Below are positions 6,688 through 47,705 of a stretch of 64,000 nt of DNA, piece after piece; within the stretch, counting starts at the first letter, position 1, and every line of letters starts with the position of its first letter. The stretch comes from Spirochaetota bacterium (GTDB lineage: Bacteria; Spirochaetota; UBA4802; UBA5550). The notes under the pieces are model-generated. The model saw nothing but the letters and a program-made list of their open reading frames with translations. It was not told the DNA's origin and did no database searches. Location: contig JAJRXZ010000032.1 of NCBI GenBank assembly GCA_024276015.1, positions 1 to 64,000 of the forward strand, in the 5' to 3' direction. Position numbers and translations under genes: made by a program.

Positions 6688-9600
6688 ATGAAGAACATAT
6701 TCAACTTATATAAATTGCTTCTTTCTCTTGTCTTCTTCATTCTTTGTTCGAATAAGAATTTGTACCCACAAAGTGATAAAGCAATTATTCATATAAATTC
6801 TAATGATATTGTATATGAACTTTCACAACAATGGTATTTTAAAATGGATGACAATATTGAATATAAAAATATTAATATTGATCATCATAATTGGTCATTT
6901 TTTTATCCACATTTACCTTGGGAACAATTCCCCGGCTATAAAGGGTACAGAGGGAACTCATGGTATAGACTAATAATTTATGTCAGTAAGAATATTACTG
7001 ATCTGGGATTATTTGTTCCAAGACATTACAGAGGAGCACAATTTTATTTTAATGGAGTTCTTATTCATCAAACGAGAAAATTTTCTAATTCAGGTAAATC
7101 ACCACCAATTATCGGAAAACCCGATTTAATAAAAATACCAACAAATCTAATAAATAGAAAAAATATATTAGCAATGAGAACAGGATTTCTTAATCAAGCA
7201 GGCGGTTTTGACGGGAAAATATATATAGGACCCCAAAATCTTATTCATAAAAAATGGATAAAATTTATAATATGGAACATTTTCCTCGCATCCATAAATA
7301 TATTTTTAGGATTTTATTTCTTCATATATTATCGGAACAGAAAAGAAGACAGGTACTATTTATACTATTCGGGGCTTGCTCTGTCGCTCGGATCATGGTT
7401 TCTGGGCTATAACGGCCTTATTCTCTGGGTATTCGATCACCAGTGGGTCTATATTATTTCCACATATATAGGCTCAATGTTTATACCTGTTATGCTGATC
7501 AATTTTATTCATTCGTTTTTTAATTATAAAAAAGGCCTTACAGCCAGATCATTCGAAGCTTTTTACTCTTTCCTGATAGTTTCATTACTGATCGAATATA
7601 TCCTCAGAGGCAATATTTACTATTTTTCAAAATATTTATACGAACCATTTATGCTGAGCATTTTGCTTGCCTGCACATATTCGGTCTATATCTGTTACAA
7701 AGGAACAAAAGAGAAGAAGCCCTATGCGCGGCGCATATTTGCGGGAACAGGAATTGTGGGAATATCTGCTATTGTCAGTATCCTCACATTTATAGATATT
7801 ATTAAATTTAACCCTCCCATACTTGAAGGGTTCTTTGCAATGACAATTATCTTTGCCACTGTTCTTGCGGCCCGCTTTTCAAGCGTTCACACAGAGCTCG
7901 AAATCGCTCATAAAGAGCTTCTTGAAATGGACAGAATGAAAGACGACTTTATAGCCTCGACCTCGCACGAGCTTAAAACTCCCCTTCTCGGCATAGGAGG
8001 CATTGCAGAATCGCTTATAGATAACGCTAAAAGCAGGCTCGGCAGAGAGACAATTTCAGACCTTTCATTGATCGTGTCAAGCGCCAGACGCCTTTCAAAT
8101 CTTGTTAACGATCTGCTGGACCTTTCAAGAATCAAACATAAAGACCTTGAACTTCAGAGAGGAGAAGTTGACATAAAACAGATAACCGATATGGTTATAT
8201 CGCTCACCTCGGCTCTTGCCCGCGATAAGCCAGTTGAGTTTTATAACAAGATAGATGAGAATACTCCTACCCTATACTGCGACGAAAACCGGCTCCTCCA
8301 GATAATGCACAACCTGATCGATAATGCCCTTAAATTTACCGAACGGGGCGAGATATCGGTTTATGCCCAAAGGATGAACGATTTTGTCAAAATTACGGTG
8401 GAAGATACCGGCATAGGCGTCCCGGCCGATAAAATTGAGAAGATATTTAACTTTTTCGAACAGGCCGACAGCTCCATTACGCGGAAATACGGAGGCACGG
8501 GAATAGGCCTCAGCATAACGAAACAGCTTATTGAACTGCACGGCGGCAAAATTCACGCCGAATCAACGGAAGGCAAAGGATCAAAGTTTATATTTACAAT
8601 GCCCCTTTTCACGGGGCAGTATGACGAATCCGCATCATTAAAAGCGGCACCAGAGGAGATCGATCCGGAGAAAGCGCAAAAGATACTGCGCGCCTATTTC
8701 AAACATGCTGAAACTGAAAACCTGCATGCTCCCCGAATTATATACGAAAAGAAGGAAAGTGATCTCAGCGAAAACCGTAATAAAACCTCTGTTCTTGTAA
8801 TTGACGACGAGCCTATCAATCTGCGCGTTCTTTCCAGCCAGCTGACGTTTGCAGGGTATAACGTAAAAACAGCGGCAGGCGGCCGCGAGGCTCTTGAACT
8901 GCTTGAAACTTCCAGGATCCCCGACATAATTCTGCTGGACATCATGATGCCAGGCATGTCCGGATATGAACTCTGCTCCAGGCTCAGAGAGAGATACACA
9001 ATGCACGAACTGCCTATTATAATGATAACGGCAAAAAACCAGACCGCAGATCTTGTTGCGGGATTTGAAACGGGCGCAAACGATTATCTCGGAAAACCCT
9101 TTGAAAAAAGAGAGCTTCTTGCCAGGGTTAACAACATTATTGCGCTGAAAAAAACCATAAAAAAATACGAAAAATCCAGATATAAAAACCTCAGAGAAAG
9201 GGCCAATCCTCATTTTCTCTTTAACGCGATACACACCATTCACGCTCTGATGCGGAGCAACGTAAAAAAGGCGGACGAAGCAATGGTAATGCTTGCGGAT
9301 ATTTACAGATTTCAGATGGACACATCCTTTCAGGATCTGGTGCCCTTTGACGTGGAATGGGAATTTGTGAATATATACCTCAAATTTGAAAAAATTCTCT
9401 TTCCCGAAACCATAAATTTCGAAATGAACAAAACCGGCGGCCTCAGCTCCATAATGATCCCGCCGCTGATCATACAGCCCCTTGTTGAAAATTCCCTTAA
9501 GCACGGTCTCAGAAATAAAGAAGATGGCGGATACATTCATGTCAATGCCGCGTGCACCGGAAATTCGGTAAAGATCTCGGTTGAAGACAACGGCACGGGT

Positions 9601-38415: not shown

Positions 38416-38494
38416 CACTTGAAATGCTCCAATTTACATGGTTTTTTGTAATTAATACAAAAACAAAAGAACCCCAGAAGGAGCATTTCAAGTG
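38416..38494 (+). promoter_or_regulatory. Hairpin that can sequester the transposase start
   Basis: cacttgaaatgctcc (38416-38430) and ggagcatttcaagtg (38480-38494) are exact 15-base complements. The downstream arm contains the GGAG ribosome site and the GTG start codon, so the stem would block translation in any transcript that begins outside the element. Confidence 0.75.
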
Positions 38495-40000
38495 AAAAAT
38501 AACTTTGCCAGAATCGCTGAAAATTACAAGAAGAATTTAAAAATCCGGTTAGAAAATAATAATGATGAACGGATAAAGCCTGTATTTTCAGCATCAAATA
38601 CAGATTATGAAATATCCGAAAGGATCAAGGCTATTCCGTGCGGCGGCATTGGACTTGTAGACCAACTAATAAAAAGAACAGGTCTGCCTAATATGATAAA
38701 CGAAAACATTCATCTTTTGAAACGTCATAAACCATACTTTGAATCAGATCATATACTAAATATCGCTTACAATATCGTATGTGGGGGTACCTGTCTTGAA
38801 GATATTGAACTGTTAAGAAACAACATCTCCTATATGGATGCCCTTGGGGCAAAGAGGGTTCCTGATCCGACAACGGCGGGAGATTTTTTAAGAAGATTTG
38901 AAGAGGATGACATATGGAAATTAATGGATGTTTTTAATGAAGCGAATACAATAGTATGGGAAAATACCCTTGATAAGCGAAGCCGCAGGGCCTGCATTCT
39001 TGACGTTGACGGGAAAATACAGTCTACATATGGAGAATGCAAAGAAGGAATGGATATGTCCTATACGGGAGAGTGGGGATTTTCTACACTTGCAATTACC
39101 GAAGCGACTACGGGCGCTCACCTGCATGTTGTAAACCGGGCTGGGAATGCATTGTCGCAGGAAGGAGCTGATGAATGGATAGATAAATCGATAAATACCG
39201 TAAAGAAGACATTTGACAGCGTATATCTCCGGGGAGACTCGGCTTTCAGTCTGACATGGAAATTTGACGAATGGAATGATCAAGACGTAAAATTCATATT
39301 TGGTTATGATGCTTTTCCCAATCTGGTAAAAAAGGCTGATTTATTGGGGAAAAATGAATGGAAATCTTTTTCTAAACCAAAGAAGAGGCGTGAGAAAAAA
39401 AGAAAGAAAAAGCAGAGAGTAAAAGAAGTTGCTGTAATCAGAAGAAAATATAAAAATATAATCCAGAAAAAACTTTATGTTTCAGAATTTAAATATAGGC
39501 CGGGAAAATGCAAAAAGGACTACAGGGTTATTGTTCTCAAAAAAATAGTTGATGTAAAAAAAGGACAACAACTGCTTTTTGAAGATGTTCGGTACTTTTT
39601 TTATATAACCAATATCTATGACACGTGTTCAACTGATCTGATAAAATTTATACATGGGCGCTGCAATCATGAAAATAAAATCGAACAGCTCGCCAATGGC
39701 ATTCATGCCCTCAAGATGCCTGCGGCAGAATTTATGGCTAACTGGGCATATATGGTAATCTGTTCGCTTGCCTGGAATATTAAATCATGGCTTGGCCTGC
39801 TAATGGTGGACAAAGTAAAGGGAGAAGAATTGATCAAGGCAGAATTTAAAAGTTTTCAGAATAAAATTATACAAATCCCCTGTCAGGTATTGACAACCGG
39901 AAGAAAAATAATTTTCCGTTATTTGAATTATAACTTATGGATTGAAAGCAGTTATGCTACATTTATAAAAATTAAGAAAATGAAGTTTTCATCAGCTTGA
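38492..40000 (+). CDS. IS1380-family DDE transposase
   Basis: A 502-residue transposase of the DDE/RNase-H fold. Family features: an N-terminal GGIGLVDQLIKRTGLPNMIN helix region, HILNIAYNIVCGGTCLEDIE, PDPTTAGDFLRRF, the first catalytic Asp in ACILDVDGKIQSTYG, the second in VYLRGDSAFSLTWK, a lysine-rich insert (about 295-325) and the NHENKIEQLANGIHALKMPA segment carrying the catalytic Glu. Start is GTG at 38492 with AGAAGGAG upstream. Lies wholly inside the 38367-40196 element and appears intact. Confidence 0.92.
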   Translation: MKNNFARIAENYKKNLKIRLENNNDERIKPVFSASNTDYEISERIKAIPCGGIGLVDQLIKRTGLPNMINENIHLLKRHKPYFESDHILNIAYNIVCGGTCLEDIELLRNNISYMDALGAKRVPDPTTAGDFLRRFEEDDIWKLMDVFNEANTIVWENTLDKRSRRACILDVDGKIQSTYGECKEGMDMSYTGEWGFSTLAITEATTGAHLHVVNRAGNALSQEGADEWIDKSINTVKKTFDSVYLRGDSAFSLTWKFDEWNDQDVKFIFGYDAFPNLVKKADLLGKNEWKSFSKPKKRREKKRKKKQRVKEVAVIRRKYKNIIQKKLYVSEFKYRPGKCKKDYRVIVLKKIVDVKKGQQLLFEDVRYFFYITNIYDTCSTDLIKFIHGRCNHENKIEQLANGIHALKMPAAEFMANWAYMVICSLAWNIKSWLGLLMVDKVKGEELIKAEFKSFQNKIIQIPCQVLTTGRKIIFRYLNYNLWIESSYATFIKIKKMKFSSA

Positions 40001-41202: not shown

Positions 41203-41207
41203 TTATC

Positions 41208-41388
41208 TGCCTGCATTGCTCGTGATAGGTTTGCAGTATTTTTGAGCCAATATAATACTGCACGGGATCCTTAATCTGGAAGCGGATACCATGCTCTCTC
41301 GAAGAGAAGGTAGAAACTTACATGCGGGAACCCACCTGGTTTACCAGGTTCAAAAATCCTTACCTACACGGCAAATGCGGGTTTTTTA
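41208..41388 (+). ncRNA. ssrS: 6S RNA
   Basis: 6S RNA binds the housekeeping RNA polymerase by mimicking an open promoter and lowers transcription in stationary phase. Ends pair as in the family: cctgcattgctcgtg (41210 on) with cacggcaaatgcggg (41367-41381), leaving small bulges, then the arm continues around a large internal region. Internal sequence matches E. coli 6S in order: UGAGCC-AUA near 41245, AUGCUC in the middle, and the terminal-side hairpin CACCTGGTTTACCAGGT corresponding to the family's CACCUUGAACCAAGGG. Total about 180 bases, the normal size, and a T run ends it. Identified from memory of the family; a covariance search would confirm. Confidence 0.8.
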
Positions 41389-45286: not shown

Positions 45287-46291
45287 CTACTTTTCATTTA
45301 TGGTTTCTTCAACAGACATGCCGAAATGCCTGCCGCCCCTTTCAACAAAACCGAGCACCTTATCTCCGCCTTTAAGGGACGCAACGCTTAATGCTTCGCC
45401 TGATATGCCTGTGAGCCGAATTGTTTCGGCATTCTGCAGAATAATTGAATGCCTTCCGCCCTCTTCATCTTCGGCAAATATAACCACCATGGGACGTTTT
45501 TCAATTTTTGACCTGCCTACATAAGACATATAAGAGTTGCCTTCTTTGTTTACTATAAGTACGGGATCACCTGTGCCGAGTTCGCCAAGATATCCGGTTT
45601 TGTCTCCTGGAACCCTGATATAGGAATGGACCGCTCCTGCATTAACACGAAAGGGCCTTGGCGAAACATAGGGGTTGTCCAGATTCTCCGCGTGAACAAG
45701 AAACATACCCCTGCTTGAATTGCCGATGAGCATACCTTCACCCTGACCAATATTACTTACAGTGTCAAGACAGACCCTGTCTCCTGTTCCGATATTCCGT
45801 ATCTCGGTAATTTGAAGAGTTATGAGGTTAAATGTTTCAGAATTTATTGATTTTATATATTTTATAACAGAAGTTATCTCACCGGGGTTGTCGGTCTCAA
45901 GGACTATTCCTGCAACCCCTTTCTCCATTATTTCAAGAGCAAGTTTAGCTTCGTTTATATCCCTGACAAAGGTGAAGAGATTCTCACCGCCGCGGGGGAT
46001 CAGATTTTCAATGGGAATTATATTCCAGTCGGTTGTTCTTACGGCAACAATTTTAGACCTCAAGGCATCAGCAGCACGATCTTCGTCATCTTTATTGTTA
46101 ATTATTATCACTTCAACATCTTCGGGGATCTTCATATCTCCCTTCTCAGGAGCAACAACAGTGATACGTCCCAGTTCTTTGATCCTGTGAACAAACGCAG
46201 CAGGCGCCACTATTGCATCAATACCCGATTCCAGCGCTTCGGTTACAAGTTTTTTATCCCAGTCTTTTAAGTTTAGCCAGCATTTTTTCAT
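45287..46291 (-). CDS. aroB': 3-dehydroquinate synthase II (archaeal type)
   Basis: Converts 2-amino-3,7-dideoxy-D-threo-hept-6-ulosonate (ADH) to 3-dehydroquinate in the archaeal route to the shikimate pathway, which bypasses DAHP. The 334-residue protein matches the MJ1249 family in full: [20 protein letters not shown] at the start, TDNPGEI near the middle, [39 protein letters not shown], and [20 protein letters not shown]. No similarity to bacterial AroB. Its start overlaps the ADH synthase stop (ATGA), a two-gene operon. Confidence 0.93.
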
Positions 46292-47052
46292 CGGACTTTA
46301 CCATGGACAATTTCAGATATTTTTCTTACCATCTTTTCAGGATCCTCATGCTGAAATATATTCCTGCCTATTGAAACGCCGGCTCCGCCTACACTTATTG
46401 CTCCCTTTACCATTTCCAGTACTTCCTCGTCGGTTTCCATTTTTTCACCGCCTGCAATAACAACAGGGACAGGACATCCTTCAATCACCTCCCTGAATGT
46501 TTCCGGCGAACCGGTATAATTCACTTTTACAATATCTGCGCCAAGCTCCGCTCCCACTCTCGCTGCATGTTTAACCACATTAACGTCGTACTCATCCTCA
46601 ATCTTTTCGCCTCTGGTATACATCATTGCAAGGAGCGGCATCTGCCATTCCAGACAGGCTTTGGAAACAATGCCGAAATTTTGCAGCATCTCCGATTCTG
46701 TTTTTGCTCCTATGTTTACGTGTATGGACACAGCGTCGGCTCCCAGTTTTAATGCTTCTTCAATCGAACAGACAAGTGTCTTTGCATTTGAATCGGGCGC
46801 AAGAACCGTGCTTGCAGAAAGATGTATGATCAGTCCGATATCTATTCCCGAACCTCTGAAGCCTGTTGAAACAAGCCCCTTGTGCTGAAGGATCGCATTG
46901 GCTCCCCCTCTGGCAATCTTATCAATTGTTCCCGCAAGGTTAATAAGCCCGTGAATCGGGCCTATTGTTACTCCATGGTCAATTGGAACCACAATAATTT
47001 TTTCCGTATTTCTGTTAATAATTCTCTGTAAACGAATCTTTTTCCCAATCAT
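46288..47052 (-). CDS. 2-amino-3,7-dideoxy-D-threo-hept-6-ulosonate (ADH) synthase
   Basis: Class I aldolase of the FbaB/LacD family that condenses 6-deoxy-5-ketofructose phosphate with aspartate semialdehyde (MJ0400 type). 254 residues with [16 protein letters not shown] near residue 21, [59 protein letters not shown] containing the Schiff-base Lys, [18 protein letters not shown] and [13 protein letters not shown]. Pairing with dehydroquinate synthase II identifies the pathway. First gene of the operon. Confidence 0.93.
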
Positions 47053-47190
47053 GATAAAACCCTCAAAAATAAATTACAGCGATCAGCTCTCATACCGGCT
47101 GTTGATATAATCTCAACCAATATTTAACAAATATTTTAAGTCAAGCAAATAATAACCGGGTCAAACTTTCCCATTGATTAACTTCCCATG

Positions 47191-47281
47191 AGGCCGGATC
47201 CGGAGTCGAACCAGACAGGCACCTTATAGACGCCTCAACGGGTTTGCAGCCCGCGGGGAGCACCGGCCCCCTAAACCGGCC
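47191..47281 (-). tRNA. Selenocysteine-tRNA-like tRNA with Cys anticodon (GCA)
   Basis: A 91-base cloverleaf. Acceptor GGCCGGT/TCCGGCC (position 7 is T opposite T); D stem of six pairs (GGGGGC/GCTCCC) with a four-base loop CGGT; anticodon arm GCGGG-CTGCAAA-CCCGT, anticodon GCA (Cys); long variable arm AGGCGTC-TATAA-GGTGCCT of seven pairs; T arm TCTGG-TTCGACT-CCGGA. The long variable arm, six-pair D stem with tiny loop and CTNCAAA loop are hallmarks of tRNA-Sec, but the anticodon and discriminator T73 are the CysRS identity elements. An 8/4 branch is an alternative pairing. CCA is not encoded. Probably charged with cysteine; ordinary tRNA-Cys is type I, so this is a minor, specialised form. 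Confidence 0.82.
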
Positions 47282-47705
47282 AAAAATAAATTTTTTATAA
47301 TTTGTCATTCCAATAATATACCAAAAATATATCTACAAATGAGACTGTCAATTATTAATTATATCAATATACTATATCTATAATATAGATCAATATTAAC
47401 TGCAATATATACAACAGTTATCCCAGCAGAATAATTAACTGTATTTCACCAGCCTGCGCCGTACTTGGCTTAGGCTGGTGAAACCAGGACATAGGTAACA
47501 CTTTTAGACAAAATTGAATTCGGGAGTAAACTTTCAGTTCACCTGTATTTTCTACTTGAAATTTTAATGACCGATTTATTACTTTATATCCTGACAAATA
47601 TAATGAAGTTAAAAATATTTACATAGAAAATGATAATACTCTATTAGTCGATCACAGGCTCAAAAAAGTGTTGTAATTTACAAAGATACATATAGTATTT
47701 TTACT
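47282..47705. other. Scarred intergenic region with an inverted repeat
   Basis: AT-rich and without a gene. tttcaccagcct (47444-47455) and aggctggtgaaa (47472-47483) are exact complements 16 bases apart, followed by ccaggacataggtaacac (47484 on), a sequence I associate with IS21/IS481-type element ends. TTGACA on the minus strand at 47346-47351 may be part of the tRNA promoter. Confidence 0.4.

Follow-up and report, generated by a model that had tools for sequence, protein, structure and literature searches.

U73 and the anticodon GCA are the main CysRS identity elements, and in E. coli a shorter acceptor stem moves the binding of selenocysteine tRNA (tRNA-Sec) from SelB to EF-Tu. A tRNA-Sec of Aeromonas salmonicida with a GCA anticodon reportedly inserts Sec at UGC/UGU codons. 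Cysteine tRNAs with a Sec-like build are already known from Firmicutes, Thermodesulfobacteria, Nitrospirae and Proteobacteria, according to PMC7609411, in which selC* tRNA-Cys has an 8/4 acceptor/T branch with an A51a bulge. The clostridial GCA tRNA-Cys of Desulfotomaculum nigrificans is reported to be charged by CysRS and delivered by SelB, with UGA read as Cys (PMC11415595). tRNA-Sec with a 12-bp branch, some of them from Spirochaetes, are also known and were judged functional (PMC5330540).

We analyzed the window, a stretch of 64,000 nucleotides from a Spirochaetota bacterium (GCA_024276015.1, contig JAJRXZ010000032.1, positions 1 to 64,000). Direct reading revealed an intact 91-nt tRNA gene on its minus strand, at 47281-47191. 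ARAGORN called a tRNA-Cys(GCA) at 47190-47281, and an Rfam cmscan of the whole window gave a full-length match to the tRNA-Sec model RF01852 (62.0 bits versus a gathering score of 47, E 3.4e-10), the kind of model that the sequence-only reading of this stretch had proposed to run. Both names are correct, the first for the Cys labels U73 and GCA and the second for the D and variable arms of a tRNA-Sec body. The minimum-energy fold reproduced the same arms, which are laid out as follows.

47191..47281, minus strand: whole tRNA gene, with G1 at 47281 and U73 at 47191 (ARAGORN and RF01852); the CCA end is not encoded
47275..47281, minus strand: acceptor stem, 5' strand GGCCGGT, positions 1-7 (direct reading and family counts)
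47256..47271, minus strand: D arm, 6-bp stem GGGGGC/GCTCCC and 4-nt loop CGGT (direct reading)
47238..47254, minus strand: anticodon arm, 5-bp stem and loop CTGCAAA (direct reading and family counts)
47245..47247, minus strand: anticodon GCA (ARAGORN)
47217..47235, minus strand: variable arm AGGCGTC-TATAA-GGTGCCT, 7 bp (direct reading)
47199..47215, minus strand: T arm, 5-bp stem TCTGG/CCGGA and loop TTCGACT (direct reading and family counts)
47192..47198, minus strand: acceptor stem, 3' strand TCCGGCC, positions 66-72 (direct reading and family counts)
47191..47191, minus strand: discriminator U73 (direct reading; U73 in 20/20 family members)
47324..47351, minus strand: TTGACA-16-TATTTT, resembling a promoter by consensus match only, about 42 nt upstream of the tRNA

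All the elements listed in the sequence-only reading were read directly in the gene, namely GCA, T73, the 6-bp D stem with its 4-base loop, the 7-bp variable arm, the CTNCAAA loop (here CTGCAAA) and the T7:T66 mismatch; acceptor pairs 1-6 are Watson-Crick and 7:66 is U:U. Its view that a tRNA of Cys type is built on the body of a tRNA-Sec is upheld. With its 7-bp variable arm the molecule departs from the class I body and short variable loop of ordinary tRNA-Cys, and with U73 and GCA it departs from the G73 and UCA of tRNA-Sec. It belongs to the broad group of Sec-like tRNA-Cys by its Sec-like D arm and long variable arm, its Cys identity elements U73 and GCA, and a host that has a canonical tRNA-Sec and SelB.

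When 84,980 named species genomes were scanned by pattern, 98 loci were obtained, and each was inspected singly. Those with U73 fell into window-like, Nitrospirota, Bacillota and deltaproteobacterial groups; the others were a few chance matches and, in Burkholderiales and Cloacimonadota, GCA tRNAs with G73. With a covariance model of the window-like sequences, 393 Spirochaetota genomes were searched, and four carried the tRNA (G000, the window's host, and G025, G035 and G041). These four belong to one order and three families, the remaining matches in the phylum being canonical tRNA-Sec with clearly lower scores. The window tRNA scored 97.6 bits against covariance model R1, whose training included its own sequence. 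With 16 loci in other phyla, the clade numbers 20, so that the structure is common to relatives, three of them in genomes of the same order. The phyla added by the scan were Spirochaetota, Planctomycetota, Acidobacteriota, Elusimicrobiota and Chloroflexota. The sequence-only reading had associated such tRNAs with Deltaproteobacteria; they do occur there, but confinement to that group does not hold, given these five phyla and those listed in PMC7609411. As far as the literature tells, and judging from reviews, their placement in spirochaetes and some of the other phyla is new, although earlier notice is possible.

All 20 window-like sequences formed one clade (FastTree 0.90, ultrafast bootstrap 89), separate from the tRNA-Sec of their own hosts, in a tree that is only moderately firm because the sequences are short. 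The window tRNA is 86% identical to the tRNA of a Syntrophaceae genome, compared with 68% to its own genome's tRNA-Sec and 54% to the ordinary tRNA-Cys. From the tree placement and the first two of these identities, transfer between phyla appears to fit better than local duplication of selC. The window tRNA is not a chance product, having relatives with intact stems and compensatory changes. One Syntrophaceae locus (L169, G403) contains two differing copies 6.2 kb apart (2388-2486 and 8654-8751), near yedE, DUF3343, yedF and a CooC-like ATPase gene.

The sequence-only reading had suggested that the T7:T66 mismatch might conceal an 8/4 branch. Pair counts over 19 aligned clade sequences led us to reject this for the clade, as pair 49:65 was standard in 16/19 sequences, with three pair types, and the alternative 8:65 in only 10/19. 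Under the 7/5 model, 93.5% of cells were paired and 18 pairs changed on both sides, which exceeded all shuffles and slid controls. D arm cells were 100% paired across phyla, and all 6 variable-arm pairs counted across the clade altered on both sides. Pair 7:66 was non-standard in 12/19 sequences. By these counts the clade has a 7/5 branch, in which the last acceptor pair is weak and the linker has 3 nt.

The window tRNA, 7/5 without a bulge, therefore falls outside selC* sensu stricto, which has an 8/4 branch and an unpaired A51a. Five deltaproteobacterial loci of the scan (L059, L079, L093, L125 and L132) have that form in our own reading of the sequences, and in four of them (L059, L093, L125 and L132) selB lies 37-64 nt from the tRNA. 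The window tRNA also lacks the 13-bp (8/5) branch of tRNA-Sec, as does the host's own tRNA-Sec, which is likewise 12 bp. In the spirochaete hosts, tRNA-Sec has 7 nt from the T stem to G73 and a bulged acceptor base (7/5), whereas the tRNA-Sec of the non-spirochaete clade hosts is an ordinary 8/5. Because the order's own tRNA-Sec is 7/5 and that class was judged functional (PMC5330540), a 12-bp branch need not exclude SelB; in the non-spirochaete hosts, SelB would need to work with 8/5 and 7/5 tRNAs alike.

The host genome (2.86 Mb, 94.8% complete) was placed in Spirochaetota, in agreement with a spirochaete origin. It contains the genes that the sequence-only reading had proposed to look for: a normal tRNA-Cys on contig 10 (C10:4335-4408) and a true selC (UCA/G73) on contig 35 (C35:9508-9596), with selA and selB after it. 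Its single selD has an in-frame TGA, and the hairpin GGUCC-GGC-GGACC that comes after this UGA is SECIS-like by position. Genes for a Sec-lyase-like aminotransferase, YedF and a Se/S carrier (DUF3343) lie together on contig 80. These genes, together with the hairpin, indicate that the Sec system is present and probably active. Canonical selC was found in 18/20 clade hosts, selB above the cut-off in 17/20 and selD in 20/20, the hosts that miss selC or selB being mostly draft genomes. Neither a second selB nor a CysRS without anticodon domain, either of which accompanies selC* in some lineages, was found beside the window tRNA; the host has one selB and one cysS above the cut-off, on other contigs, and selB was within 2.5 kb of 0/20 clade members. 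A truncated CysRS was discarded as a candidate, since the host has one cysS and the weaker second matches in other hosts are untruncated ORFs of 729-848 aa.

The window tRNA has no selenium gene beside it. The next gene downstream is context with no known link to the tRNA, and is followed by another.

46288..47052, minus strand: 2-amino-3,7-dideoxy-D-threo-hept-6-ulosonate synthase (TIGR01949, 344.9 bits), next gene downstream on the same strand
45287..46291, minus strand: 3-dehydroquinate synthase II (NF002627, 440.2 bits), context

These two adjacent genes (45287-47052, minus strand) correspond to the archaeal type of shikimate-pathway entry, here in a spirochaete. Elsewhere in the window, a 6S RNA (41205-41387, plus strand; RF00013, 102.2 bits) lies just past the 3' end of a pyruvate:ferredoxin oxidoreductase gene, and a 502-aa ORF (38492-40000, plus strand) looks by eye like a DDE transposase.

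Across the family, we searched within 2.5 kb of each tRNA for yedF, yedE, selD, double-cubane reductase, activase, Sec lyase and DUF3343 genes. YedE, YedF and DUF3343 were linked earlier to selenium genes through genomic context, as were a 2-hydroxyglutaryl-CoA dehydratase-like subunit, its activase and DUF169 (PMC5322559). Such a selenium-handling neighbor adjoined 27/67 U73 loci (9/20 window-like and 18/47 others) and 0/30 GCA/G73 loci, 23 of which adjoin selA or selB; selB adjoins 5 further U73 loci. The spacing to the selenium gene was often 10-90 nt, and curated models confirmed the double-cubane reductase (NF040772, 470 bits), the activase and YedF. The order was tRNA-reductase-activase at L040, L081 and L044, reductase-activase-tRNA-yedF at L118, yedE-Sec lyase-tRNA-yedF-selD at L110 and yedF-tRNA-selD at L120. 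Among the other spirochaetes, G035 has a reductase gene upstream of the tRNA, cut by the contig end, G025 has a DUF169 gene near it, and G041 has a double-cubane reductase gene directly upstream (L035:3711-4346) with an internal deletion of about 200 residues, so that the N-terminal 22 residues are joined in frame to the C-terminal half. The 11/20 clade loci without a selenium-handling neighbor include several cut by contig or locus ends.

Neighboring genes were also considered as local UGA targets. This was rejected, as tblastn alignments showed no internal stop in the selenium genes near these tRNAs, bar one HdrD-like gene with three stops, in a draft genome. In four of four Desulfobulbales loci (L060, L096, L134 and L136), about 20-50 nt separate the tRNA from the end of an upstream gene for an HdrD-like iron-sulfur protein.

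We favor, with reasonable though far from full confidence, a functional minor tRNA-Cys with the body of a tRNA-Sec. CysRS would read U73 and GCA and charge the tRNA with Cys, and SelB would deliver this Cys-tRNA wherever a SECIS hairpin marks a UGA codon, which the GCA anticodon would read. When selenium is scarce, selenoproteins would thus be built with Cys instead of Sec. This seems the best reading because the clostridial relative is reported to act in this way (PMC11415595), because the family tracks selenium genes and because it co-occurs with selC, selB and selD. Points against it are the absence of a selenium neighbor in the window and at 11/20 clade loci, the need in non-spirochaete hosts for a SelB that takes both branch types, and the shift toward EF-Tu that a shortened acceptor stem causes in E. 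coli. A UGA-containing SelD may be one plausible beneficiary, and in these cells Sec synthesis would depend in a circle on SelD, itself a selenoprotein. In a more specific version, which is tentative and on balance doubtful, the SelB-delivered tRNA would allow a Cys-containing SelD to restart Sec synthesis in response to low selenium, and the 7/5 clade, together with yedF, yedE and double-cubane genes, would form a module that can be transferred.

The UGA form of SelD occurred in 20/20 clade hosts and in 34/34 other U73 hosts, among those with a readable SelD, compared with 19% of the SelD genes of a reference set (PMC4561486). Two controls led us to drop it as a tell-tale of the tRNA's role. 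Whether the tRNA is present or absent, nearly all SelD in the window's order have UGA, and so do most in Planctomycetota, the phylum of G408, where UGA was present in all but about 20 of the about 160 SelD listed. The association is therefore non-discriminating in these groups; UGA-containing SelD evidently does not require the tRNA, and common lineages may account for the association. As UGC/UGU may be read as Sec in the GCA/G73 genomes, these do not make a clean control. As an observation in its own right, the in-frame UGA is the rule for SelD in Planctomycetota, far over the 19% of reference prokaryotes.

Other functions were weighed against SelB delivery. The gene might be an extra tRNA-Cys that works with EF-Tu at ordinary UGC/UGU codons, its Sec-like arms inherited and its selenium link a matter of regulation, such as more Cys decoding upon selenoprotein failure. 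GCA pairs directly with these codons, and the 7/5 branch supported by covariation has the canonical length for EF-Tu. However, a plain Cys tRNA needs neither a D arm kept fully paired across phyla nor the Sec system that the hosts nearly always have, a normal tRNA-Cys is already in the host, and a 7/5 branch also occurs in some tRNA-Sec that were judged functional (PMC5330540), so that we regard this as unlikely. The sequence-only reading had also considered action on a particular Cys-rich mRNA; no sign of this was found. A role as Cys donor in a non-ribosomal selenium or sulfur reaction, linked with the double-cubane reductase, YedF or YedE, would account for the operon-like spacing that the tRNA and these genes show in several phyla; such a role appears quite improbable, as no aminoacyl-tRNA-dependent ligase was recognized nearby by eye and the Sec-decoding machinery co-occurs.

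The patchy distribution in Spirochaetota, the 7:66 mismatch and the lack of a selenium neighbor in the window would suit a functionless relic or inactive copy. Yet the other pairs are all intact, with compensatory changes across the clade, the tRNA is found in three families of the order, and the same pair is mismatched in most members, which makes a relic very improbable. The poorest candidate, in our estimation, is Sec insertion at UGC/UGU codons by a tRNA-Sec whose anticodon has changed. It would agree with the GCA anticodon and with a Sec-like D arm of the kind recognized by SelA (PMC7609411), but the U73 of all members contrasts with the G73 that marks tRNA-Sec (PMC5330540), and the GCA tRNA-Sec in the scan keep G73, mostly beside selA/selB.

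With these results, a sparsely studied group of recoding tRNAs reaches into spirochaetes and other phyla, gains a distinct 7/5 clade and is linked to genes of selenium trafficking. It offers a direct test case for whether bacteria program the replacement of Sec by Cys at UGA, and another for the sharing of 12-bp tRNAs between SelB and EF-Tu.

Among known systems, ordinary tRNA-Cys, as in the host copy, has the same anticodon loop and U73, and differs by its short variable loop and canonical D arm. The GCA tRNA-Sec of Cloacimonadota, Burkholderiales and A. salmonicida have the same anticodon and a Sec body; they differ by G73 and a position mostly beside selA/selB, and are expected to serve Sec, not Cys. 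The scan found such GCA/G73 tRNAs in Burkholderiales (L039, L050, L052, L068, L111 and others), mostly beside selA/selB, and in Cloacimonadota (L057, L064, L099, L100 and others), which makes these organisms candidates for Sec encoded by UGC/UGU. The 12-bp tRNA-Sec of Spirochaetes, Gammaproteobacteria and Clostridiales (PMC5330540) have the 7/5 branch, the host's selC being of the same kind, and carry G73 and UCA in selABC clusters. The selC* tRNA-Cys of Syntrophobacterales and Desulfobacterales is likewise a Sec-like Cys tRNA with U73, from which the window-like clade differs by lacking the 8/4 branch, the A51a bulge and a selB directly downstream. tRNA-ReC, from D. nigrificans and others, resembles the window tRNA in its Sec-like body, U73, GCA and a host with its own tRNA-Sec, and some Bacillota relatives adjoin yedE or double-cubane reductase genes. 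Its Bacillota members have an 8-bp acceptor stem and mostly an extra T-stem base, unlike the 7/5 clade without bulge, which stands apart in the tree. By sequence and inferred structure, the window-like tRNAs are a distinct 7/5 multi-phylum clade inside the known Sec-like Cys tRNAs, next to selC* tRNA-Cys and tRNA-ReC.
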